DNA from: Symploca sp. SIO2E6 | GTDB taxonomy: Bacteria; Cyanobacteriota; Cyanobacteriia; Cyanobacteriales; Coleofasciculaceae | Direction of reading: 5' to 3' | Length of the DNA stretch: 35,514 bases | NCBI GenBank assembly: GCA_010672425.1 | Contig: JAAHGR010000002.1 | Location: forward strand, 1-35,514 | Shown here: positions 1,932 through 28,846 of the stretch, in pieces | Numbering within the stretch: position 1 is the stretch's first letter | How the letters are laid out: each line of letters begins with the position of its first letter | The notes under the pieces: model-generated | The model's input: the letters and a program-made list of their open reading frames with translations, nothing else | Database searches by the model: none | Told to the model about the DNA's origin: nothing | Made by a program: the position numbers and the translations under genes

Positions 1932-3011
1932 TTATTCTTCTGATGTTACAGCTGAATCTGGTGGAATGAGTTCTTCTACTGGTATTTCCTCCACTTCCTC
2001 AGGAATAACTACAGGTTCGGATAAGGGAACTTCCTCTTCTTCTAAGGTGATAGTTGTCTCTGGTGGAATCAGTTTTTCTACGGAGATGGTAGCTTCACTG
2101 GGGATAACTGAATCCTCCGATACTGGTGTTTCTCCCACTTCCTCAGGAATAACTACAGGTTCAGGTAAGGGAACTTCCTCTTCTTCTCGAGTGACAGCTG
2201 GCTCTGGTGGAATCAGTTCTTCTCCTGAGATGGTAGCGTCATCGGGGATAACTGACTCCTCCGATACTGGTATTTCCTCCACTTCCTCAGGAATAACTAC
2301 AGATTCGGTTAAGGGAACTTCCTCTTCTTCTCGAGTGACAACTGGCTCTGGTGGAATAAATTCTTCTACTGAGATGGTAGCTTCATTGAGGATAACTGAC
2401 TCCTCCGATACTGGTGTTTCTTCCACTTCCTCAGGAATAACTACAGGTTCAGGTAAGGGAACTTCCTCTTCTTCTCGAGTGACAGCTGGCTCTGGTGGAA
2501 TCAGTTCTTCTCCTGAGATGGTAGCTTCATCGGGGATAACTGAATCCTCCGATACTGGCATTTCCTCCACTTCCTCAGGAATAACTACAGATTCGGTTAA
2601 GGGAACTTCCTCTTCTTCTCGAGTGACAACTGGCTCTGGTGGAATAAATTCTTCTACTGAGATAGTAGATTCATCGGGGATAACTGAATCCTCCGATACT
2701 GGTGTTTCCTCCAATTCCTCAGGAATAACTACAGGTTCGGGTAAGGGAACTTCCTCTTCTTCTAAAGTGACAGCTGGCTCTGATGGAAGGAGTTCTTCTA
2801 CGGAGATGGTAGCTTCATCGGGGATAACCGAATCCTCCGATACTGGCATTTCCTCCAATTCCTCAGGAATAACTACAGGTTCGGGTAAGGGAACTTCCTC
2901 TTCTTCTAAAGTGACAGCTGGCTCTGGTGGAAGGAGTTCTTCTACGGAGATGGTAGCTTCATCGGAGACAACCGAATCCTCCGATACTGGTGTTTCCTCT
3001 ACTTCCTCAGG
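1932..3011. repeat. Coding tandem array, 144-bp units
   Basis: The C-terminal third of the lipoprotein consists of about six full and two partial 48-residue units with the core EEEEVPLPEPVVIPEE and the spacer PVSEDSVIPDEATIS. Units alternate between two sub-types (VEEFIPPEPVVTRE and GEELIPPEPAVTRE), which suggests that two-unit blocks were duplicated together. Confidence 0.85.
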
Positions 3012-4571
3012 AACAACAGGTGCCGCAGAGGGAATCTTACCCTTGACAAATTTTAGGAAGCGATCAAATAAACGACCAAATTTGGACTTTTCAGGTTCTA
3101 ATGCTGTGATTGCTTCCGATTCCTCTAGGAGTACTGGAGGTTCACCAAGAATTACTGATTCCTCTTCCTCCTCGGAAACAACCGATGTCTCTTCTAGTGG
3201 TTCAGGAGCAACAGCTGCTTCCTCTTCCTCCTCAGAAACAACCGATGTCTCTTCTAGTGGTTCAGGAACAACAGCTGCTTCCTCTTCCTCCTCAGAAACA
3301 ACCGATGTCTCCTCTAGTGGTTCAGGAACAACAGCTGGTTCCTCTTCCTCCTCGGAAACAACCGATGTCTCCTCTAGTGGTTCAGGAACAACAGCTGGTT
3401 CCTCTTCCTCCTCAGAAACAACCGATGTCTCCTCTAGTGGTTCAGCAGCAACAGCTGATTCCTCTTCCTCCTCGGAAACAACCGATGTCTCTTCTAGTGG
3501 TTCAGGAACAACAACTAATTCCTCTTCCTCCTCGGAAACAATAGCTGGCTCCTCTAGTGCTTCAGGAGCAACAACTGGTTCAAGGGAAGGTTCCTCAACT
3601 TCCTCTGGTTGTTCGGGTAAATCCGTGGGAGGTAACACTTCCACAGATGAAGGAATTGGTGAATTTAGTTCTACAAGGCTACGGGCGATCTCTAACTCCA
3701 GTTCACCGCGTACTAACTGAGAGAGGGTATCTTCGCCTTCAGGTTCGTAGCTAATCAACCGCACCGTGTCATTGAAAACATTTTTGACAGGGTTTCCTTG
3801 TTCATCTAGAAATTCCAAGTGCACCCAATTTTTGCCCGGTTTAAACCCTTGAAGATAAAAGGGTTGCCAGCTATCAAGAACAAAGCTTTTACCGTTTACT
3901 GTGACTCGAATTCGCCAATCAACAATCTCATCATCAGGATTTTCTGCCGCAACCAGGTGGAGTGGAGCGTTTGTTAGGTAGAAATCAAGCATAATCGGCT
4001 CGGCTCCGTAACTACCTTGAGGATGATTGTAAGTCAGTGTTGGTAAGGCTGGCTCAGGATTGTTATCAGTAGTCTTGGTAAAAAGGTGAAACGTAGTTTG
4101 GGCATAAGCACCTTCGTTTTTAAAACTCTCATGCCAAGGACGAGAAGCAAATACTCTGAGAGTGTGGGTTCCAGGGGATAAATCTTCAAAAACTAGAGGT
4201 TCGTCTAACTGATAAACTTCTCGAGCAATCTGGTTGTCTAGGAGCACATGTAAGTGGGGACCCAGACCCAAATCTGGATCTTGGAAAATTGGTAGGTCCT
4301 GAACCTGGAATTCCACCTTGACATTATTGTCTTGGAGAACTTCATCAGACTGAGGAGTGACAATTGCCACTTGAGGCTGGTAAGCTTCCAAACTTTGGTT
4401 CAGTTGTTGAATGACTGGGGGTGGTGCTACCTCCGAGAGTTGCTCTGTTCTCAGAGTAGGCAATGCCACCTCGTTACTCGGTGTTTCCGGTGTCTCAATG
4501 GGAGCTTCCCCACATCCTACTAGACCCCAAGCCAAAATTGCTGCCGCCAGCAAAGAAAAAATTACTCTCAC
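1932..4571 (-). CDS. Large lipoprotein with two arrays of acidic tandem repeats
   Basis: I choose the GTG at 4571 as the start. It has a strong GGAGG at 4578-4582, six bases upstream, and gives a textbook lipoprotein signal MRVIFSLLAAAILAWGLVGC with lipobox L17-V-G-C20. An ATG 54 bp further upstream would bury this signal behind a hydrophilic extension. The mature protein is about 860 residues. The first 290 or so form beta-rich segments resembling Ig-like or cell-surface domains (for example FEDLSPGTHTLRVFASRPWH). Then come about seven 20-residue units of the type EEPAVVPEPLEETSVVSEEE, a short basic linker (FGRLFDRFLKFVKGK), and about seven 48-residue acidic units. It is extremely rich in Glu, Pro and Val, so the tail should be extended and highly negative. 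The likely location is lipid-anchored in the cell envelope, facing the periplasm. The function is unknown; cation binding or a spacer role is only a guess. Confidence 0.75.
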   Translation of the reverse strand: MRVIFSLLAAAILAWGLVGCGEAPIETPETPSNEVALPTLRTEQLSEVAPPPVIQQLNQSLEAYQPQVAIVTPQSDEVLQDNNVKVEFQVQDLPIFQDPDLGLGPHLHVLLDNQIAREVYQLDEPLVFEDLSPGTHTLRVFASRPWHESFKNEGAYAQTTFHLFTKTTDNNPEPALPTLTYNHPQGSYGAEPIMLDFYLTNAPLHLVAAENPDDEIVDWRIRVTVNGKSFVLDSWQPFYLQGFKPGKNWVHLEFLDEQGNPVKNVFNDTVRLISYEPEGEDTLSQLVRGELELEIARSLVELNSPIPSSVEVLPPTDLPEQPEEVEEPSLEPVVAPEALEEPAIVSEEEEELVVVPEPLEETSVVSEEEEESAVAAEPLEETSVVSEEEEEPAVVPEPLEETSVVSEEEEEPAVVPEPLEETSVVSEEEEEAAVVPEPLEETSVVSEEEEEAAVAPEPLEETSVVSEEEEESVILGEPPVLLEESEAITALEPEKSKFGRLFDRFLKFVKGKIPSAAPVVPEEVEETPVSEDSVVSDEATISVEELLPPEPAVTLEEEEVPLPEPVVIPEELEEMPVSEDSVIPDEATISVEELLPSEPAVTLEEEEVPLPEPVVIPEELEETPVSEDSVIPDESTISVEEFIPPEPVVTREEEEVPLTESVVIPEEVEEMPVSEDSVIPDEATISGEELIPPEPAVTREEEEVPLPEPVVIPEEVEETPVSEESVILNEATISVEEFIPPEPVVTREEEEVPLTESVVIPEEVEEIPVSEESVIPDDATISGEELIPPEPAVTREEEEVPLPEPVVIPEEVGETPVSEDSVIPSEATISVEKLIPPETTITLEEEEVPLSEPVVIPEEVEEIPVEELIPPDSAVTSEE
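3161..3580. repeat. Coding tandem array, 60-bp units
   Basis: About seven 60-bp units run in exact register (clearest between 3181 and 3540), each encoding a 20-residue EPLEETSVVSEEEEE-type block. Neighbouring units differ by only a few bases, so this array is younger or more homogenised than the 144-bp array. Confidence 0.85.
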
Positions 4572-5017
4572 AGTTATCCTCCGGTGATTGTCGCCCAAAA
4601 CTCCACCTCCTGTTGCTACCGGCATTTTATCCTAACTGAAGCTGTTTATCGGAACTATATAGATAAGCAACATTTGAAGCATTAGAAAGATTGCCAATTA
4701 TGAGCATAGACTCTCATCTATATTGAATTTTGTAACATTTATTCGATTTACTATTGACTTTTTTTCCAGGAGTTTTCGCATTCCAAGCCAAGGCAAGACC
4801 TTGATTTGCTCAAATTTGAATTATTGTTAACTGTCACCTTAGACTGTCCAAGGCAAGACCTATCATCTACTAGAGAAGATATTCCCTTTAGTTATTCAAA
4901 CAAAATGGGTATATTCTTTCCCAAGGGAAGCATTTTCGTGGTACTTTCCTCCCTATAAAGTAAAGATTCAACTCCCCTTGGGTATTTCTCAATCCTTGTC
5001 TAGAGAGGAGATTCCTT
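4572..5017 (+). promoter_or_regulatory. Upstream region of psaA with direct repeats and a leader stem
   Basis: This non-coding region separates the divergent lipoprotein and psaA genes. A 14-bp direct repeat (ccaaggcaagacct) occurs at 4788-4801 and 4848-4861, exactly 60 bp apart. Closer to psaA, cccaaggg near 4920-4928 can pair with cccttggg near 4975-4983 to form an 8-bp stem with a loop of about 45 nt. GAGAGGAG at 5002-5009 is the psaA ribosome-binding site. I cannot assign the promoter hexamers with certainty. Roles in light regulation or mRNA stability are inference. Confidence 0.45.
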
Positions 5018-7264
5018 ATGACAATCAGCCCTCCTGAGCGAGAGGCAAAATCTAGGGTGGATAAAGATCCGGTACCAACTTCCTTCGAGAAGTGGGGTAA
5101 GCCCGGTCACTTTTCCCGTACCCTAGCCAGAGGACCAAAAACCACAACTTGGATTTGGGACCTTCATGCTGACGCTCACGATTTCGATAGTCATACCAGT
5201 GACTTACAAGATATATCTCGGAAAATATTCAGTGCTCACTTCGGTCACTTAGCCGTTGTGTTCGTCTGGTTGAGCGGTATGTATTTTCATGGCGCTCGCT
5301 TTTCCAACTACGAGGCTTGGCTGAGCGATCCGCTCAGTGTTAAACCAAGTGCTCAAGTTGTTTGGCCAGTTGTTGGTCAAGGTATTTTGAATGGCGATGT
5401 CGGTGGCGGTTTCCATGGCATCCAAATTACCTCTGGTTTATTCCAGCTTTGGCGTGCTTCTGGGATTACCAATAGTACCCAGCTCTACGCAACAGCAATT
5501 GGTGGTCTGGTGATGGCAGGTCTGATGCTATTTGCCGGTTGGTTCCACTACCACAAAAAGGCTCCAAAACTGGAATGGTTCCAGAATGTGGAGTCAATGA
5601 TGAACCACCATTTAGCAGTGTTGTTAGGTTGTGGCTGTTTGGGTTGGGCTGGTCACCAGATCCACGTTTCTCTGCCCATCAACAAGCTGTTGGATGCTGG
5701 AGTGGCACCGGGTGACATTCCCTTGCCTCATGAGTTGCTCTTCAACACCGCCAAGATGGCAGAGCTGTATCCTAGTTTTGCCGAAGGACTTACACCATTC
5801 TTCACCTTGAACTGGGGCGTCTATTCTGACTTCCTGACATTCAAAGGCGGTTTGAACCCAGTAACTGGTGGCTTGTGGTTGTCTGATACTGCTCACCATC
5901 ACTTAGCACTAGCAGTTCTGTTCATTGTTGCTGGTCACATGTACCGGAACACCTACGGTATTGGCCACAGCATGAAGGAAATCCTAGAGGCTCATAAAGG
6001 TCCCTTCACTGGTGAAGGACACAAAGGTCTCTATGAAATCCTGACCACTTCTTGGCATGCTCAACTAGCAGTTAATCTGGCTGTACTAGGTTCTATCACC
6101 ATTGTCGTGGCTCATCATATGTACGCGATGCCTCCCTATCCGTACATTGCTACCGACTATCCTACTCAGTTGTGCTTGTTTACCCACCATATGTGGATTG
6201 GAGCCTTCTGTATTGTGGGTGCTGCTGCCCACGCCGCGATCTTTATGGTGCGGGATTATGACCCGGCGCAGAATGTTAACAACCTGTTAGACAGAGTTAT
6301 CCGTCATCGGGATGCGATTATCTCTCACCTGAACTGGGTATGTATTTTCCTCGGCTTCCATAGCTTTGGTCTATACATCCACAACGACACAATGAGAGCT
6401 TTGGGGCGTCCCGAAGATATGTTCTCGGATACGGCGATTCAGCTGCAACCAATCTTCGCTCAGTGGCTACAAAATCTCCACACCCTAGCGCCGGGAGGAA
6501 CTGCTCCCAATGCATTAGCTACAGCTAGCTACGCCTTCGGTGGTGATATTGTTGCTGTGGGCGGCAAAGTGGCAATGATGCCAATCACTCTGGGTACGGC
6601 GGACTTTATGGTTCACCATGTCCATGCCTTTACCATCCATGTCACCGCTTTGATTCTGCTCAAAGGCGTGCTGTACGCTCGTAACTCTCGCTTGATTCCA
6701 GATAAGTCTCAACTAGGCTTCCGCTTCCCCTGCGATGGTCCAGGTCGTGGTGGTACCTGCCAGGTATCTGCTTGGGATCATGTGTTCCTCGGTCTGTTCT
6801 GGATGTATAACTGCATCTCGGTTGTGATTTTCCACTTCAGCTGGAAGATGCAATCTGATGTTTGGGGAGACTTTGAAGATGGTGAAGTGTACACCATTGC
6901 AGCCGGTAACTTTGCCGACAGTGCCATCACAATTAACGGTTGGTTACGTGACTTCTTGTGGGCACAAGCTTCCCAGGTAATCACATCCTATGGATCTGCT
7001 TTGTCTGCTTACGGCATAATGTTCCTAGCCGGTCACTTCATCTTTGCCTTCAGCCTGATGTTCCTCTTTAGTGGTCGCGGCTACTGGCAAGAACTGATCG
7101 AGTCAATTGTTTGGGCACACAATAAGTTGAAAGTTGCCCCAAGCATTCAACCACGCGCTCTGAGTATCACTCAGGGACGAGCAGTAGGGGTAGCCCACTA
7201 CCTCCTGGGAGGAATCGTCACGACTTGGGCGTTCTTCCATGCGCGAATTCTATTCTTTGGCTAA
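5018..7264 (+). CDS. psaA: Photosystem I P700 apoprotein A1
   Basis: The 748-residue product is close to the usual 750-755. PsaA is one half of the photosystem I reaction-centre heterodimer in the thylakoid membrane. It binds P700, antenna chlorophylls, phylloquinone and, together with PsaB, the Fx [4Fe-4S] cluster. The Fx-binding loop [12 protein letters not shown], with its two Cys ligands, is present in the C-terminal third, and the many paired His residues in membrane helices (for example [20 protein letters not shown]) are typical. The N-terminus [11 protein letters not shown] matches the family and follows a GAGAGGAG site. psaB follows after 172 bp in the usual psaA-psaB operon order. 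No defects seen. Confidence 0.99.
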
Positions 7265-7436: not shown

Positions 7437-9638
7437 ATGGCAACAAAATTTCCCAAATTTAGCCAGGACCTCGCTCAAGATCCGACAACACGTCGAATCT
7501 GGTACGGGATTGCTACGGCTCACGACTTTGAAACTCACGATGGCATGACCGAGGAAAATCTTTACCAAAAGATTTTTGCCTCTCACTTCGGTCACCTCGC
7601 GATTATTTTCTTGTGGACCTCTGGCACCCTGTTCCACGTAGCCTGGCAAGGTAACTTTGAACAGTGGATTCAAGATCCTCTAAATGTTAGTCCCATCGCC
7701 CATGCGATTTGGGATCCTCACTTTGGCGAACCAGCAATAGAGGCATTTACTCAAGCTGATGCCTCTGGCCCGGTCAATATTGCTTACTCCGGGGTCTACC
7801 AGTGGTTCTACACCATTGGCATGAGAAGCAACAATGAACTGCACGGTGGTGCCATGTTCCTCTTGTTGTTGTCTGCCCTCTTCCTGTTTGCTGGTTGGCT
7901 CCACTTGCAGCCTAAGTTCCGTCCTAGCTTGTCTTGGTTCAAGAATGCTGAGTCTCGTTTAAACCACCACTTGGCTGGTTTATTTGGCGTCAGCTCTTTG
8001 GCATGGACTGGACACCTAGTTCACGTTGCTATCCCCGCATCTCGCGGACAGCACGTAGGCTGGGATAATTTCCTGTCCACTCCACCTCACCCAGCAGGTT
8101 TGGCACCGTTCTTCACAGGAAACTGGGGTGTTTATGCCCAGAACCCGGATACAGCTGGTCACATTTTTAGCACCTCGGAAGGCGCAGGAACAGCAATTCT
8201 GACCTTCTTAGGTGGCTTCCATCCCCAGACTGAGTCCTTGTGGTTAACGGATATTGCTCATCACCACCTAGCGATCGCGGTGATCTTCATTATTGCTGGT
8301 CACATGTACCGGACTAACTTCGGTATTGGTCACAGCATCAAGGATATCCTGAACGCTCATAAGCCACCTAGTGGCAAATTGGGCGACGGTCATAAGGGGC
8401 TGTATGATACCGTTAACAACTCTCTCCACTTCCAATTGGGATTAGCACTCGCCTGCCTAGGAGTTGTTACTTCCTTAGTAGCTCAGCACATGTATTCCAT
8501 GCCGCCTTACGCCTTCTTGGCGCAAGACCAAACTACCATGGCGGCACTGTATACTCATCATCAGTACATTGCTGGTTTCTTGATGGTGGGAGCGTTTGCC
8601 CATGGAGCAATCTTCTTTGTGCGGGATTATGATCCAGAGTCCAACAAGAATAATGTGTTGGCTCGGATGCTAGAGCACAAAGAAGCCGTAATCTCTCACC
8701 TGAGCTGGGTAAGTCTGTTCTTGGGCTTCCACACTCTGAGTCTCTATGTCCACAACGACGTAGTAGTTGCCTTTGGTACCCCTGAGAAGCAAATCCTGAT
8801 TGAGCCAGTTTTTGCTCAGTGGATTCAAGCTGCTCACGGGAAACTACTATACGGGTTTGACACTCTGCTCTCCAACTCTGATAGCCTTGCTTCTGGTAGT
8901 GGCGCTGCTTACCTACCGGGCTGGTTGGATGCGATTAACAGTGGCTCTAACTCTCTGTTCTTGACCATTGGTCCTGGAGATTTCCTAGTACACCACGCGA
9001 TCGCTCTAGGTCTGCATACCACTGCTTTGATCTTGATCAAAGGTGCATTAGATGCCCGTGGTTCCAAGCTGATGCCTGATAAGAAGGACTTCGGCTATGC
9101 CTTCCCTTGTGACGGTCCTGGCCGTGGCGGTACCTGTGATATCTCTGCTTGGGATGCCATGTACTTAGCTGTGTTCTGGATGCTCAACACCTTAGGTTGG
9201 CTTACCTTCTACTGGCATTGGAAGCATTTGGGAGTCTGGCAAGGTAACTTAGCCCAGTTTAACGAGAATTCCACTTACCTGATGGGTTGGTTCCGGGACT
9301 ACCTCTGGGCAAACTCTGCTCAGTTGATCAACGGCTACAATCCCTACGGTACAAATAACCTGTCAGTCTGGGCTTGGATGTTCCTGTTTGGACACCTAGT
9401 TTGGGCAACTGGTTTCATGTTCTTGATCTCTTGGCGAGGTTACTGGCAAGAATTGATCGAAACTTTGGTCTGGGCACATGAGCGTACTCCTCTGGCTAAC
9501 CTAGTTCGCTGGAAGGACAAGCCGGTTGCTCTGTCTATTGTTCAAGCACGTCTAGTTGGCCTAACCCACTTCACTGTTGGCTATATCCTAACCTACGCGG
9601 CATTCCTGATTGCCTCAACTTCTGGTATATATGGCTGA
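7437..9638 (+). CDS. psaB: Photosystem I P700 apoprotein A2
   Basis: The 733-residue partner of PsaA starts with the canonical [20 protein letters not shown]. It carries the second half of the Fx site ([19 protein letters not shown]) and the conserved C-terminal part [18 protein letters not shown]. It is an integral thylakoid protein of the photosystem I core. A GAGGAG motif lies about 15 bases upstream of the ATG, a rather long spacing. The gene ends at a strong bidirectional terminator (9683-9710). Co-transcription with psaA is expected from the family and from the absence of a terminator between them. Paralogous similarity to psaA is high, as in all type I reaction centres. Confidence 0.99.
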
Positions 9639-18107: not shown

Positions 18108-18198
18108 ATGACCAATGACCAATGACAAACAACAAATGACAAACAACAAATGACCAATGACAAACAACAAATGACAAACAACAAATGACCAATGACTA
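18108..18198 (+). repeat. Thirteen heptamers running into the polA start codon
   Basis: Thirteen consecutive 7-mers (mixtures of ATGACCA, ATGACAA and ACAACAA, the last one ATGACTA) run without interruption. The ATG of the twelfth unit (18185) is the polA start, and the thirteenth is inside the gene. No Shine-Dalgarno sequence is visible upstream, only the repeat. Confidence 0.9.
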
Positions 18199-21157
18199 TC
18201 TTCTCCTCGTTGACGGTCATTCCCTAGCATTTCGCTCTTACTTTGCCTTTGCTAAAGGCAGGGATGGGGGACTGCGCACAACTACGGGGATTCCCACTAG
18301 TGTCTGTTTTGGCTTTCTCAAATCCCTGCTAGAGGTGATGAGTTCCGAGCAACCCCAGTCGATGGCGGTGGCTTTTGATACCCAAGAACCGACATTTCGC
18401 CATGAGGTGGACGAAAATTACAAGGCAGGAAGGGATGAAACCCCGGAAGAATTTATCCCGGATTTACAAAATCTCCAGGAATTGCTGGCTGCTTTAAGAG
18501 TACCTGTAGTCACGGCTCCTGGCTATGAGGCGGATGATCTGTTGGCAACCCTAGCTTATCGTGCTAGTGATAGGGGTTATCAAGTCAAAATTTTAACAGG
18601 CGATCGCGATTTATTTCAGCTGGTTAACCCCGAAAAAGGGATTACAGTTTTGTATCTGAGTGGTGCTTTTTGGGGACGTAGTAGTACTACTGGACCAATC
18701 GAATTTCACTCCGAGGATGTGGTAGCAAAACTCGGCATTACCCCAGCACAGGTGGTAGATTATAAGGCCCTTTGTGGGGATAAATCGGATAATATTCCTG
18801 GGGTTAAGGGCATTGGGGAGAAGACGGCAGTTAAATTGCTCAAGGAATATAGTACTCTTGAGGCAATTTATGCTTCCCTGGATCAGATGAGGGATTCCGT
18901 TAGGAAGAAGTTAGAAACTGGTGCAGCGGCAGCTAAACATTCTCAGTACCTGGCTCAACTCAGATTTGATACTCCTGTGGAGATGGAGTTAGAAGACACG
19001 AAACTACAAGGGTTTGAGCTGGGAGTGATTCAACCCCTGTTAGAAAAGTTAGAGCTTAAGTCATTTTTGGTTAAAATTGACCAATTCCAGGAGCAGTTTG
19101 GTGGTATCGTTGTCGAGGAAGTTGCTCCTGAATCAGCAGAGGTAGTTTTACCAGATGCCGAAACTGAGGATTTGTGGTTCTTCAGTGCCGAGGATACCAC
19201 AGCCTATCAACAGCAACAACTAGCCAATAAACCTTTCCATGTCAGGATTATTGATACAGAAGCTAAGTTAATTGAGTTGGTGCAGCAGCTGCAAAACTGT
19301 ACTGACCCAAAATTTCCTGTAGCCTGGGATACGGAAACTAGTGCTTTGGAACCCAGGGATGCTCAGTTAGTTGGGATTGGTTGTTGTTTTCTTGAGCAGG
19401 GAATGGGGAATGGGGAATGGGGAATGGGGAATGGGGAACAGGGAACAGAGGTGCTTCTTAGGAACTCTTCAGATGTTACAGTTGCTTATTTTCCCATCGC
19501 TCATCGGCGAGGTGTTAATTTAGACCGAGATATCGTACTAGAAGCCTTGCGGCCAATTTTGGAGAGTAGTAATTATCCCAAAGCCTTGCAAAATACTAAG
19601 TTTGACCGCTTGGTATTCCGTTGTCAAGGAATTGAGTTAGCGGGAGTGGTCTTTGATACCATGCTAGCCAGTTATGTGCTCAATCCTGATGAGAGCCATA
19701 AACTCAGTGATTTATCCCTGAAATATTTGGGACTGACGGCGCAAAGTTATACGGATTTAGTCCCTAAGGGTAAAACTATTGGTGAGGTAGATATTCCCGC
19801 TGTAGCAGATTACTGCGGTATGGATGTTTACACGACATTCATGCTGGTAGCTAAATTGGGAGCAGAACTCCAAAACACTCCTCAATTGCAGCAGCTGTTG
19901 CTGGAGGTGGAACTATGCCTCGAAGCGGTGTTAGCTGAGATGGAATACCAAGGTATTCGTATTGATCAAGCATACCTCAAGGACTTTTCCCAACAACTAG
20001 AAACAGATTTACTCAACCTTGAGCAGCAAGCTTACCAAGATGCCGAGGAAGAGTTTAACCTGGGGTCTCCCAAACAGCTGAGTGAGTTGCTCTTTGTTAA
20101 ATTAGAGTTAGACCGTAAGAAATCTCGCAAAATCAAAACCGGTTACTCCACCGATGCCGCCACCCTGGAAAAGCTGCGAGGGGATCATCCGGTAGTGGAT
20201 CGGATTCTGGAATACCGGTCTCTGGCTAAATTGAAATCTACCTATGTCGATGCTTTACCTGCACTACTGCGTGCCGATAGCCAACGGGTACATACAGATT
20301 TTAACCAAGCGGTGACTACCACAGGACGTCTCTCTTCTTCTCACCCCAATTTACAGAATATTCCGATCCGCACTGCCTTTTCCCGGCAAATTCGCAAGGC
20401 TTTTATCCCAGAACCTGGTTGGTTATTAGTAGCGGCAGACTACTCCCAAATTGAATTACGCATCCTAGCCCACTTGAGTAAGGAACCAGTTTTGGTAGAA
20501 GCTTATCAGACTCAGGGAGATGTTCATACCCTCACAGCTCAAATGTTGTTTGAGAAGGAGGAAATCACCCCAGAAGAACGACGTTTGGGTAAGGTGATTA
20601 ATTTTGGTGTGATTTACGGCATGGGAGCCCAAAGATTTGCCCGGGAAGCCAAGATGCCAGCCTCCCAAGGGAAAATATTTATCGATCGCTTTAATGAGCG
20701 CTATCCCCAGATTTTTGCCTATTTAGAGCAGATGAAGCAACAAGCGATCGCCCAAGGTTATGTAGAAACTATTTTAGGACGCCGCCGCTATTTTAACTTC
20801 ACTAGTGAGAAACTGCGAAGAGAGCAAGGGAAAGATTTAGCAGAGATTGATCTAGGGAAATTCAAAGGAATAGGAGCCTACGATGCCGGTTTACTCAGAG
20901 CCGCTGCTAATTCTCCGATTCAGGGCTCTAGTGCAGATATTATCAAAGTGGCGATGGTGAAACTGCATCAAATATTACGGAATTACCAAGCGCGGTTGCT
21001 GTTGCAAGTACATGATGAATTAGTTTTTGAAGTTCCTCCAGAAGAGTGGGAGGAATTGCAGCCACAAATTCGGGAAGCGATGGAGTCAGCAGTGGAGTTA
21101 ACTGTACCGTTGGTAGTTGATGTTCATGCAGGGTTGAATTGGATGGAAGCGAAGTAG
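18185..21157 (+). CDS. polA: DNA polymerase I
   Basis: The 990-residue product carries all three Pol I domains. The 5'-3' nuclease spans about 1-290 (LLVDGHSLAFRSYFA, YEADDLLATLA, GDRDLFQLV and GDKSDNIPGVKGIGEKTA). The 3'-5' exonuclease spans about 370-590, with D382 and E384 in DTE and YCGMD later, so proofreading should be active. The polymerase spans about 600-990, with motif A DYSQIELRILAHL, motif B RRLGKVINFGVIYGMG and motif C VHDELVFE. It acts in Okazaki-fragment maturation and repair. Two oddities: the ATG at 18185 is part of a heptamer array with no visible SD, and residues 405-422 (QGMGNGEWGMGNGEQGTE) are encoded by a second heptamer repeat inside the exonuclease domain. The frame is intact. 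Confidence 0.98.
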   Translation: MTNDYLLLVDGHSLAFRSYFAFAKGRDGGLRTTTGIPTSVCFGFLKSLLEVMSSEQPQSMAVAFDTQEPTFRHEVDENYKAGRDETPEEFIPDLQNLQELLAALRVPVVTAPGYEADDLLATLAYRASDRGYQVKILTGDRDLFQLVNPEKGITVLYLSGAFWGRSSTTGPIEFHSEDVVAKLGITPAQVVDYKALCGDKSDNIPGVKGIGEKTAVKLLKEYSTLEAIYASLDQMRDSVRKKLETGAAAAKHSQYLAQLRFDTPVEMELEDTKLQGFELGVIQPLLEKLELKSFLVKIDQFQEQFGGIVVEEVAPESAEVVLPDAETEDLWFFSAEDTTAYQQQQLANKPFHVRIIDTEAKLIELVQQLQNCTDPKFPVAWDTETSALEPRDAQLVGIGCCFLEQGMGNGEWGMGNGEQGTEVLLRNSSDVTVAYFPIAHRRGVNLDRDIVLEALRPILESSNYPKALQNTKFDRLVFRCQGIELAGVVFDTMLASYVLNPDESHKLSDLSLKYLGLTAQSYTDLVPKGKTIGEVDIPAVADYCGMDVYTTFMLVAKLGAELQNTPQLQQLLLEVELCLEAVLAEMEYQGIRIDQAYLKDFSQQLETDLLNLEQQAYQDAEEEFNLGSPKQLSELLFVKLELDRKKSRKIKTGYSTDAATLEKLRGDHPVVDRILEYRSLAKLKSTYVDALPALLRADSQRVHTDFNQAVTTTGRLSSSHPNLQNIPIRTAFSRQIRKAFIPEPGWLLVAADYSQIELRILAHLSKEPVLVEAYQTQGDVHTLTAQMLFEKEEITPEERRLGKVINFGVIYGMGAQRFAREAKMPASQGKIFIDRFNERYPQIFAYLEQMKQQAIAQGYVETILGRRRYFNFTSEKLRREQGKDLAEIDLGKFKGIGAYDAGLLRAAANSPIQGSSADIIKVAMVKLHQILRNYQARLLLQVHDELVFEVPPEEWEELQPQIREAMESAVELTVPLVVDVHAGLNWMEAK
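19399..19447 (+). repeat. In-frame heptamer array inside polA
   Basis: Five GGGAATG units are followed by two GGGAACA units. They encode a Gly/Asn/Glu-rich loop between the strand LVGIGCCFLE and the later strand VTVAYFPIAH of the proofreading exonuclease domain. The unit length is 7, so gain or loss of a single copy would shift the frame; the present total leaves the gene open. Confidence 0.9.
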
Positions 21158-23059: not shown

Positions 23060-26000
23060 ATGAAATCTGTTCTGCTGGCTTCTAACTGGTTATCTTTCTT
23101 GATGTCTTTGGTAGCAGCAATTCCTTTGGGAATCGCTTCACTAGCCCAAGCTCAACCGATTACTCCAGCAGCAGATGGTACTGGTACAATTGTTACTCCT
23201 AATGGCGATCGCTACGATATTCATGGGGGTAGTTTATCCGGAGATGGGGCAAATCTGTTTCATAGTTTGCAGCAATTTGGCTTAAATTCAGGACAAATAG
23301 CCAATTTTCTGTCCAATCCCCAAATTCAGAATATCCTGGGACGGGTGGTTGGGGGTGATCCTTCGATAATTCATGGCTTGATTCAGGTTACTGGTGGTAA
23401 CTCTAACCTCTACTTGATGAATCCGGCAGGGATAGTTTTTAGTGAGGGTGCTAGTTTAAATGTGCCAGCTAGTTTTACGGCAACTACTGCTAATGGTATT
23501 GGCTTTAGTAATGCTCAATGGTTCAATGCTGTTGGAGATAATAATTATCAGGATTTGCTGGGTAATCCTGGTAGTTTTGCTTTCACAATGAGTCAGCCGG
23601 GGAGTATTGTCAATGCTGGTGAGTTGGCGGTAGGAGTAGGACAGCAGTTAACTCTATTGGGTGGTACAGTTATCAATACTGGTACTATCTTGGCTCCAGA
23701 AGGAGAGATTACGATTACCGCAGTACCAGGGGAGAAGGTGGTACGTATCAGCCGGGAAGGAATGGTGCTGAGTTTAGAAGTTGAGCAGGCTTCACCCATA
23801 GCTGGGGGGATTGCTCCTGTCAGTTTACCGGCATTGCTGAGTGGGGGTAATTTGGAGGATGCTACAGGGGTAAGAGTTAACCCAGATGGTACGGTGAGTT
23901 TGACTGGTTCAGGGATTAGTTTGCCAGCAGAAGGGGGAATGGCGATTGCTTCTGGTAATCTGGAGGCTTCTGGTGATACTGGTGGCAGTGTTAATGTTTT
24001 CGGCAATAAAGTTGGTTTGATTGGTGGCAATATCGATGCTTCTGGTATCAATGGCGGCGGTAATGTGCTCATTGGTGGGGATTACCGAGGTGAGGGTACT
24101 GTACCGAATGCTCAGCGCACTTTTGTTAGTAGTGACTCGGTGATTAATGCGGATGCGCTGCTCAATGGTAATGGGGGTCGTGCGATTGTTTGGGCGGATG
24201 AGACCAACCGCTTCTATGGTAAGATTACAGCACAAGGTGGATTGGTTAGTGGTAATGGTGGCTTTGCTGAAGTTTCAGGTAAGGAGTTCCTGGATTTTGC
24301 TGGTACAGCTAACTTAGGAGCTACTCAAGGTCAGGTTGGTACTTTACTCTTAGATCCGGAAAATATCACGATTATTGACGGTGCTAATGTTCCAGCTGAG
24401 TTAGGAGAGAATGATGCATTTGCTGATCCAGGTGTCAATAATACGATTAACAATGGCACGATTAACGCTGCAACAGCCAATGTAATCCTGCAAGCTAACA
24501 ATGATATTACTTTTGAGGCTCCGATTAACATTGCGGCTTTGGGAGTGGGATTGACTGCCGAAGCCAATAACGACATTATTGTTAATGCTGATATTACCAC
24601 TCTTGAGGGTAACGTCTTCCTCAATGCTAACTCTGACGGTATGAATGGTGGTGCTATCAACCTTAATGAGAACATAACTATTAATACCAATGGTGGTAAT
24701 TTCACTGGCACTGGCACAGGAAATGACCCATTCATCAGCGGCATTACTCTCAATAATAACAGCACCATTAATGCTGCTGGTGGCAATATTAACCTTACTG
24801 GTACTGGTGTCGCAGGTGGTAATGAGGGTTATGGTATTGAGGTTGGTGGCAGTATAGAGACAACAGGGACAGGGACGATCAACCTCAATGGTACAGGCGG
24901 TGCTGGAAATAATAGCAATATAGGAATATTTATGAGTGCCACTGGCAGTATTAGTGCCAATGATGGCAATATCAGCTTAACTGGTACAAGTAATGGAACG
25001 GGAGAGGGTAATCATGGTATCTTTTTGAATCAAGGTGGTGCTGTAGAAACAACTGGAATAGGTGCGATTGACTTAATAGGCATTGCCAGTGATGGGAATG
25101 GTAATGTCAATAAAGGGATACTTATTACAAATACGAGTTCTATCTTCTCAGTGGATGGAAATATTAATCTCACGGGTATCGGTGGTGATGGAAATGGCAG
25201 AAATAGTGAAGGAATCACGGTTATTAACCAAGGTTCTATCTCCTCAGTGAATGGCGATATTAACCTGAATGGCACTGGAGGAACTGGAAGCAGTGGCTTC
25301 AGCCAAGGGATTGAAATCAATCGTGGAGGAGTGGTGGAAACTACGGGAAGCGGGAATATTACTATAGAAGGTAGTATTAATGCTAGTGGTGCATTCAACG
25401 TTGGCATATTTATTGGCAACCAAGACACTCGTGTTTCTTCAGTAGATGGCAATATTAGCCTGAAGGGAACTAGTAACGGTACTCAAGATACTGAATACGG
25501 CATTGTATTGATCGATAATGGTGTGGTGGAATCAACGGGGAGTGGAACCATTACCTTGGAAGGTTCATCTGCAAGTACAGACGGTATTCGCGTGCAGAAT
25601 ACTGCAATTAACCCGACAGGAATTGGTAGTGGTACAGTCACTCTCACCTCGATGCAAGACATTACTGCGGGCAATATTACTACCCAAGGGGAGTTAATCG
25701 TTAATACCGATAGCATCTACACCCTAGATAATCCGGTAACTGCCAACGGTGGAGTTACCATCACCGCTGCTGATGTGCAACTCAATGCCTTGCTGGATGC
25801 AGGTAATAGTAATGTCACCTTCCAACCTTCAGATCCTACCTTTACTATCGGTATCGGAGATGGTAGTAACAGTAATTTCAACTTGGATACCACTGAATTG
25901 ACAACTAATCTCAACTCCGCTGGCACTGTAACGATTGGCAGTCCTGGATTTACTGGTACTGGAGAGGTACAACTAAGAAACTTAGATCTGAGTGGAGAGG

Positions 26001-28846
26001 ACTACAATTTTACAGTTAGAGGTGGCAGAATTTTATTCGTAAGCAGTAGTAATCCCATTGTCAAACTTGCCGATAATAAAACCGCTCAATTCATTTCTAC
26101 GGACAGTATTATTGAAGGTGCTAATATTGACATAGAAATTGGTGGTTTAAATGGAGCAGTTTTGTTCGATGCTGCTAATAATATCGGTGTTCCAGTAGAT
26201 CCAACCTTTGGTGGTTTAGATGTTAGGGTAAGGAATATAGCTGCTCGCACTCGGAATTCTGATGGGCTCATACTGGACTTGTCTAATGATGCTGTGATTA
26301 CTTCTGTCGGTGGAGTTGATGGAGTTAGCACTGCCAATAATGGCAGTATTTCCCTGAGAGGTAATAGTAGCTTAACGCTGAATCAACCTGTGGTAGCGGC
26401 TGGTTCAGGAGAAATTCTCATCGGTGGAACACAGACAAATGTTATCAATCTCAATAGTACGTTAACTACAGAAACTGGTAATCTGACTTTTGAGAATCCA
26501 GTCGTTCTGGGTGCAGGTATTGGCTCATTGACGACTAGCGGCGGTAACATCACCTTTAATAGCACCGTTGATGGTAACCAACTACTCAACCTCAACGCTG
26601 GCAGTGGTTTAATTCAGTTTAATGACAACATTGGGGCAATCACTCCTCTAACTGGTCTTAGCTTAACAGGAGGCGGTATCACTTTAAACGCTTCTGTGAC
26701 TACTGCTGGTGATGTCACTATTATCACCAACGATAACCTCACCACTGGGGATATCACTACTGGTGGAGGCGATATTACCCTGGAAAGCCAAATTGGAACC
26801 ATTACTACTGGCAACCTCAACTCCTCAGCAGCAACTGGAGGTGATATCTTCCTCAATGCTCTCTTGAGTATTACTAGTCAGGAAATCAACTCCAGTGGTA
26901 CGATTAATAATGGTGGTAATGTTACTCTTGACCCCATCGGTGATATTCAAGTGAGCTTAATTAACGCTCAAGGTGGTAATAATGGTATCGGTGGTACAGT
27001 AGATATTACCGCTGGTCAATTTTTCCGAGCCACAGACAGTTTTAGCAATCGCAACGGACTTCTTACCAGTATCTCCACTGCCGGAGGATTAGGTGGTGGA
27101 GATATTACTATCCGACATGGTGGAAACGGAGTAACTCCCTTTGATGTAGGAGATGCTACCACCAACGGTACAGCAGCAGCCATCAGCAGTGGGGATTTTA
27201 CTATTGCTTCCCAACAGTCTTTCCCCTTCACTCATACAGAGGGTAACATACATATTATTAGTATTGATGCACCTACCAATCCTACCAATCCCATTATTCC
27301 TCCTACCAATCCCACTATTCCTCCTACCAATCCCACTATTCCCCCCATCAATCCTCTTGATCTGATCAAGCCATACCAACTCTCTCTACCTCCAGTTTCT
27401 GAAAAAATATTTCCGGTAGCACTCTCTATTGCGACAGACGAAGGAGTGGAGACTACTATAGCAGCACTCGAAAGCAGCTTCACCACTCAATTTGAAAACC
27501 ATCTAGGCATCAGCAGCAATGATAACTCTTCCACTGCTACTCTAGAAGAAGCCCGTGATAGACTAGAAGAACTAGAAGAAGTCCGCAAAAGACTGCAAGA
27601 AATAGAAGAAGCCACTGGTTCTAAACCAGCTGTCATTTATGTCTTCTTTGTCCCCACCACTACTTCCTTACAAACTTCCCCCTCAGGGGATGAGGGAAAA
27701 AAGGAGTCAGCAGACACGGAGACACGGGACGCACCGGACGCGGGGAATGAAAATCCCACTTCATATTTCGTTCAACCCCCCTCTGGCAACAAATCTCTGC
27801 CAACAGACAAACCCCAACAACCGGAAACTATTTGGCACTTCGGTTCCCAAGGCTTATCCTCCAGCGAAGAATCACCATCTTCCCTCAGACTACAACCCCA
27901 ACCTACTGATGAGTTAGAACTAATACTAGTTACTGCCAAAGGTAAACCCATTCGACACCGAGTACGAGGAGCCAACCGGGAACAAGTCTTCAAAACCGTC
28001 AAATCCTTCCGCCGTGCTGTCACCGATATCCGTGTCTCTCGTCCCTATAAAGAAAAAGCACAACAACTCTATCAGTGGCTAATTGCACCCTTAGAAGCCG
28101 ACTTAAAAGCTCAAGAGATTAATAGTCTTGTCTTCATCCTCGATACTGGTTTGCGTTCCTTACCAATTTCGGCTCTCCATGATGGTAATGGCTTTATTGT
28201 CGAAAAATACAGCATTGGTTTAATGCCTAGCTTATACCTAACTGATACTCGTTACGTAGATGTCAGGAATACCCAAATGCTAGCCATGGGAGCAGCAGAA
28301 TTTACAGCAGAAGACCAAAATCCCTTACCCGCAGTACCAACAGAATTATCTACTCTAACCGGTCAAATATGGCAAGGTACATCCTTCCTCAACGAAGAAT
28401 TTACCTTCAACAAACTCCAATCCGCTCGTGATACCCAACCTTTTGGTATTGTACACCTAGCCACCCACGGGGAATTTCTTCCAGGTAAGCTGAGTAATTC
28501 CTATATCCAACTATGGGATAAGAAACTACAACTGGATCAAGTACGGGAGTTAGGATTTCATAATCCTCCAGTAGAACTATTAGTATTAAGTGCCTGTCGC
28601 ACCGCCTTAGGAGATACCGAAGCGGAGTTAGGATTTGCGGGATTAGCGGTACTAGCAGGAGTCAAATCAGCGATCGGTAGTTTGTGGTATGTTAGTGATG
28701 AAGGAACCTTAGGCTTTATGAGTAATTTATACCAACAATTGCAGGAATCCCCCTTCAAAGCCGAAGCCTTGCGCCAAACTCAATTAGCCATGTTGCGAGG
28801 TGAAGTGCGACTAGAAAATGGCCAACTAGTAAGTAGCGATACTTAA
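23060..28846 (+). CDS. Exported haemagglutination-domain protein with C-terminal CHAT protease domain
   Basis: A 1928-residue protein. Residues 1-31 are a signal peptide ending SLAQA. A two-partner-secretion (haemagglutination activity) domain follows to about 300, with [21 protein letters not shown] long beta-helix of INLTGTG-type repeats runs to about 1400. Then come a Pro-rich hinge near 1405-1435 (repeated NPTIPPT), a coiled coil ([20 protein letters not shown]) and a CHAT domain from about 1620. The caspase-like dyad is present: H1803 in HLATHGEF and C1846 in [10 protein letters not shown]. It should be exported through an outer-membrane TpsB pore and act as a cell-surface or secreted protease; no tpsB lies in the window. 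The start has AAAGGA six bases upstream. The CHAT domain stops early ([13 protein letters not shown]) and lacks the usual terminal HPYYWAxFxxIG-type segment, so activity is uncertain. Confidence 0.92.

Follow-up and report, generated by a model that had tools for sequence, protein, structure and literature searches.

Gene organization of the locus

The window, by which we mean the whole analysed stretch of 35,514 nucleotides from Symploca sp. SIO2E6, carries on its minus strand a long reading frame for a repeat-rich lipoprotein. On the other strand stand two genes which, from the look of their sequences, we take to be psaA and psaB (Table 1). The frame closes with the stop codon at 1932-1934 and contains three in-frame start candidates, GTG 4571, TTG 4598 and ATG 4625. 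Counted from GTG 4571 the product has 879 amino acids, and 860 counted from the lipobox cysteine (...AWGLVGC). No paper on this gene was found in the open-licence literature, judged by titles and the openings of abstracts.

Table 1. Features of the lipoprotein gene and its psaA side, in window coordinates
Feature	Position	Strand	Basis or remark
Lipoprotein coding sequence	1932..4598	-	TTG 4598 most likely start, 888 codons before the stop; reading frame and start position of orthologues
Shine-Dalgarno sequence AGGAGGT for TTG 4598	4605..4611	-	6-nt spacer; direct reading
GTG 4571 with GGAGG (4582-4578), genus-specific alternative start	4569..4582	-	Direct reading and orthologues
Signal peptide with lipobox LVGC; codon of the lipidated Cys 4514-4512 (predicted)	4512..4598	-	Direct reading and orthologues
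First Ig/FnIII-like beta-sandwich, predicted	4077..4379	-	Model residues 46-146; AlphaFold, VIA-align
Second Ig/FnIII-like beta-sandwich, predicted	3732..4055	-	Model residues 154-261; AlphaFold, VIA-align Z up to 5.3
Array of seven 20-residue acidic units	3156..3575	-	TRF 3155-3581, period 60
Basic-aromatic segment KSKFGRLFDRFLKFVKGKIP between the two arrays	3030..3089	-	Single copy in the window
Array of about seven 48-residue acidic units	1977..3017	-	TRF 1977-3017, period 144, 7.2 copies
Intergenic region shared with psaA	4599..5017	.	HLR1-like site 4719-4736, 3 mismatches
psaA (presumed), divergent neighbour	5018..7264	+	Reading frame; matches beside the lipoprotein gene in relatives
psaB (presumed)	7437..9638	+	Reading frame; matches in relatives

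Start codon and lipid anchor

The original prediction had favoured GTG 4571 as the likely translation start. Both GTG 4571 and TTG 4598 are preceded at 6-nt spacing by a Shine-Dalgarno sequence (GGAGG and AGGAGGT, respectively). The codons upstream of the lipobox cysteine were compared across orthologues, and start and cysteine were counted over 98 distinct loci, repeats of the same sequence being left out. A start codon with an open frame lies 28-29 codons before the cysteine in 54 loci, 51 of which have a Shine-Dalgarno-like stretch before it, whereas the position of GTG 4571 holds a start codon in 14 of the 98 loci and one with a Shine-Dalgarno-like stretch in just three. The other 44 loci are without the aligned start; the readable ones are largely Nostocales with insertions and other starts. 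Conservation of an upstream N-terminal extension in orthologues had been named beforehand as a check on the GTG start, and this n-region is kept as frame in many of them (V-L/F-G-x-N), which argues against it. A common form in the nearer relatives among the loci listed is GGA-GAT-GGC-GTG-TTG; in the window the GTG of this series has changed to GTT and the following TTG (4598) is kept. From this survey, translation in the window most likely begins at TTG 4598. It is the better call than GTG 4571, which is a workable secondary start: among the loci listed, two same-genus relatives share the GGAGG of the window, and in one of them (L002/L082) stops just upstream leave GTG as the sole start, so that GTG can function as a start. 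ATG 4625 is a weak candidate because, in at least several orthologues, stop codons interrupt the frame before it reaches the shared start. The view first put forward, a fast-evolving envelope lipoprotein starting at GTG 4571, can point to the well-spaced GGAGG and to the same-genus relative (L002/L082) that can start nowhere else; the conserved start position and upstream residues, the near lack of Shine-Dalgarno-like stretches at the GTG position and the slow evolution of the protein body described below make it very unlikely. The mature lipoprotein is identical with either start. For annotation, the gene is an example of start-codon drift (GTG-TTG to TTG) and of the way in which a GTG restricted to one lineage can lead astray. 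At L002 (7188 onward; upstream of 6001) the start region is replaced and the short tail ends in unrelated sequence; for these two reasons this gene may be rearranged or misassembled.

The signal peptide of the window protein ends in a lipobox cysteine, as expected of a signal peptidase II substrate. A cysteine at or near the aligned site was found in all 98 distinct loci, with glycine at +2 in 80 and aspartate or glutamate at +3 in 76, which supports the assignment as a lipoprotein. Through the predicted lipid on this cysteine, the protein would be tethered to a membrane and face the periplasm or the thylakoid lumen. Three remote homologues, in the genomes G132 (locus L116), G178 (L114) and G180 (L115), have no lipobox cysteine and carry a Sec-type, cleavable-type leader instead; the lipid anchor was therefore lost or gained among homologues.

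Conserved body and predicted fold

From the cysteine on, about 286 residues form a body with a mean column identity of 73 % in an alignment of 51 sequences, in which the residues W-H-E-S-F-K-N-E-G-A-Y-A are nearly fixed. The description of the protein as fast-evolving thus holds for its tail, with arrays and length variation, but not for this slow-evolving part. The best AlphaFold model of the body (mean pLDDT 82.4, pTM 0.79) consists of two beta-sandwiches and short C-terminal helices; Foldseek returned 125 hits at E<=0.001, the other four models having pLDDT values of 55-68. In VIA-align the first sandwich reached a best Z of 5.6 (rmsd 2.7, 91 aligned residues). The fold of the single domains resembles the FnIII-like modules of CbhA (3pdd, 3pe9) and CelAly B1 (9kvu), with Z of 5.3-5.6 and rmsd of 2.2-2.8 over 82-91 residues, where a Z under 8 may reflect merely a common arrangement; identity is 10-15 %, and these modules differ in being part of modular enzymes. 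Given the structure library behind VIA-align, the absence of a family from its list does not exclude that family. The body is predicted to comprise two Ig/FnIII-like sandwiches, and the structural matches fit a fold class and imply no function.

Searches of Pfam and NCBIfam with the window protein gave no family above cut-off, and NCBIfam with the 51-member body alignment gave one chance-level hit and nothing more. The first sandwich has a weak profile resemblance to three Pfam families, Big_7 (PF17957), DUF6130 (PF19625) and DUF4399 (PF14347), seen at E up to 1 in 38, 36 and 5 of the 51 body members, respectively. The window body stayed under the gathering thresholds of DUF6130 (15.5 vs 23.7 bits) and Big_7 (13.1 vs 24.1 bits), and DUF4399 was unlisted for it. 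The second sandwich, the tail and the psaA linkage all fall outside the stretch matched by these families. A profile search against all PDB chains gave two matches up to E 10, the best at 0.43 and neither a photosystem chain; having no sequence match to solved structures, the protein is not a known subunit of photosystem I (PSI). A phage origin was also considered and rejected, as a search of the phage collection gave no match.

Repeat-built acidic tail

Two acidic arrays with periods of 20 and 48 residues had been predicted, and TRF recovered both with seven units each (60 bp x 7.1, 93 % match, score 693; 144 bp x 7.2, 90 % match, score 1662). They are in frame and together account for 489 of the 860 mature residues (57 %), close to the roughly 60 % first estimated. 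Glutamate makes up 23 % of the mature protein, valine and proline 13 % each, and the tail from residue 300 has a net charge of -177. The supposed alternation of two types of long unit applies to units 3-6, four of the seven, but not to units 1 and 2, which are like each other (95 % identity), nor to the degenerate unit 7. At the DNA level, units 3 and 5 are 98 % and units 4 and 6 are 97 % identical, compared with 90-92 % across types; a 96-residue pair was therefore duplicated.

The tail was compared over 95 distinct sequences, excluding open-ended, X-containing, under-40-residue and duplicate tails. The shortest has 63 and the longest, that of the window, 569 residues, with a median of 226; 93 tails carry a net negative charge, values running from -176 to 0, and the window has the lowest charge by composition. 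TRF arrays were present in 61 of these tails; all 101 arrays had a period divisible by three, and periods varied by lineage from 12 to 231 bp. In the body (290 codons) arrays were detected in none of the 95 loci, which puts the two arrays of the window well above a chance level. Rapid evolution of the repeat tail is supported by five Moorena-type genomes, in which bodies of 95-98 % identity are joined to tails of 247-418 amino acids; between the window and its relative L003 the identity is 88 % in the body and 37 % in the tail. The remote homologues in G031 and G180 carry other acidic repeats. On the sequence level, these data show a tail that grows and shrinks via in-frame tandem duplication, and the pattern agrees with selection acting on tail length and composition. 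A basic-aromatic cluster, e.g., GGFFNRFRRP, occurs in 84 of the 95 tails versus 22.5 expected from shuffles, a descriptive count, as the cluster was defined after inspection of the tails. A strict FFxRF-type pattern matched no more than 28 of the 95 tails and was dropped as too narrow. Rich in proline, glutamate, serine and threonine, the tail would be disordered and may act as a flexible spacer that in the window is strongly polyanionic; selection would bear on its length, composition, charge and the short basic-aromatic motif rather than on its exact sequence. The gene offers a clear natural example of a rigid, conserved body joined to a tail which in-frame repeats rebuild without altering its composition. 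Antisense to the arrays runs an open frame of 584 amino acids (1966-3720, plus strand), probably a by-product of the codon use of the repeats.

Linkage to psaA and distribution

The body was present in 54 of 57 relatives, the genome of the window included. The absences in G012 and G017 are probably assembly gaps, because G012 is also without psaA and the psaA of G017 is found at the edge of a contig. Of 146 genomes of the phylum, psaA was present in 64 and the body in 61; 60 carried both, so that the body occurred in 60 of 64 psaA-bearing versus 1 of 82 psaA-less genomes. Both genes were adjacent and divergent in 45 of the 60 genomes, over 16 families, and apart in 15, on different contigs in 4 and far apart on one contig in 11. 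Even in the small genomes G178 and G180, where the body is just 31-32 % identical, the pair is still adjacent. In the loci L002-L081, of which L044 and L048 are one contig, psaA lies upstream on the opposite strand in 76 of 80 (exceptions L006, L034, L036 and L064). This count is preferred to the wider one of 106 of 111, which includes the window, L001 and same-genome loci fetched twice. The downstream side varies: its most widespread family was found in 41 of 76 loci, and the two genes downstream in the window were matched in the window and L003 alone among 111 sequences, many of them with little or no downstream DNA.

Four psaA-bearing genomes are without the lipoprotein gene (G128, G149, G155 and G176). 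In the order of G128 this applies to seven of eight genomes, and G191 has the adjacent pair. In G176 the gene directly beyond psaA is 48 % identical to the next gene of G178, so both flanks are kept and the lipoprotein gene between them is absent. The single psaA-less genome with a homologue, G072, encodes a tail-less lipoprotein (L111, 4686-5411); it is alone in this among the 18 genomes of its class, so the gene may stem from transfer or contamination.

Shared intergenic region

The intergenic regions were scanned with a consensus of HLR1, the RpaB element. Among 73 regions with psaA aligned from its first three residues, 52 contained an HLR1-like site with at most two mismatches, versus 2-7 in dinucleotide shuffles, which replaced the mononucleotide shuffles of the first counts. 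Most of the sites lie 225-299 nt upstream of psaA, whereas the lipoprotein start is mostly some 300 nt away from them, and they may serve psaA only. RpaB is described in PMC6331805 as binding HLR1 and stimulating PSI genes in low light, with three HLR1 motifs at psaA/B of Synechocystis 6803. The shared region of the window also holds, upstream of the lipoprotein gene, the stretch AGGTCTTGCCTTGG twice (4788-4861, minus strand).

Proposed role

The interpretation first given to this gene finds support in the lipoprotein and the fast-evolving repeat tail but not in the GTG start, and it left out both the linkage to psaA and the conserved body. The gene would encode a core exported protein of cyanobacteria, in the window a lipoprotein, and be expressed with PSI under RpaB-type control; its body would serve the biogenesis or upkeep of PSI, or the membrane holding it. 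Co-expression and service are suggested because a large part of the class keeps the gene divergently beside psaA, and the region between the two has HLR1-like sites. From the sequence comparisons the product is probably a membrane-tethered protein serving PSI or its membrane; for the complete picture, an exported two-domain lipoprotein with a constrained disordered tail, co-expressed with PSI and serving it or its membrane, we see about even chances. Several findings count against a role in PSI: the 15 genomes with the genes apart, the small genomes with psaA only, the homologue in the psaA-less G072, the absence from solved PSI structures and the three homologues without lipobox cysteine. Against co-regulation count the distance of about 300 nt between the HLR1-like sites and the lipoprotein start and the three mismatches of the best site in the window.

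Alternatively, the lipoprotein could belong to the envelope or the outer membrane, its acidic, proline-rich tail crossing the periplasm or contacting peptidoglycan, and the adjacency to psaA would be without functional meaning. Lipobox and signal peptide suit such a protein, as do the FnIII/Ig-like folds of surface and adhesion proteins among the structural hits and the tail-less homologue in one genome without psaA; the near restriction to psaA-bearing genomes and the adjacency in 45 of 60 do not, and we consider it rather unlikely. The linkage could also arise if breaks in a long psaA regulatory region were selected against and the lipoprotein, with an unrelated job, were merely carried along. 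The HLR1-like sites, at a fixed distance from psaA and not from the lipoprotein start, point in this direction. Gene exchange beyond that regulatory region should have been possible, however, and yet the gene stays; the varied downstream side shows that exchange occurs, a control that does not directly test the psaA side. This explanation, too, is doubtful in our view.

Returning to a service for PSI, Psb27, CyanoP and CyanoQ are thylakoid-lumen lipoprotein factors of photosystem II. Like the protein proposed here, they are exported lipoproteins with a task at a photosystem on its lumen side; they differ as other proteins of another photosystem, and none of the three was named in the Pfam, NCBIfam and PDB scans. 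As a conserved protein with a fixed place next to psaA in 16 of the cyanobacterial families sampled, it is a candidate for a component of PSI biogenesis that has been overlooked. The most specific version, a lumen-side lipoprotein factor of PSI that would be the counterpart of the lipoprotein factors serving photosystem II, that has stood head-to-head with psaAB since early in the class and whose disordered polyanionic tail is retuned per lineage by tandem duplication around a basic-aromatic binding motif, is speculative and more probably wrong than right by a wide measure.

Other features of the window

Further along the plus strand, a reading frame at 18185-21157, presumably polA-like, contains an in-frame array of the heptanucleotide GGGAATG (19397-19445, residues GMGNGEWGMGNGEQG), a kind of short repeat that is scattered through the window. 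A frame of 1928 residues (23060-28846, plus strand) has, judging by its sequence, the look of a filamentous haemagglutinin-type protein whose C-terminus is CHAT-like.
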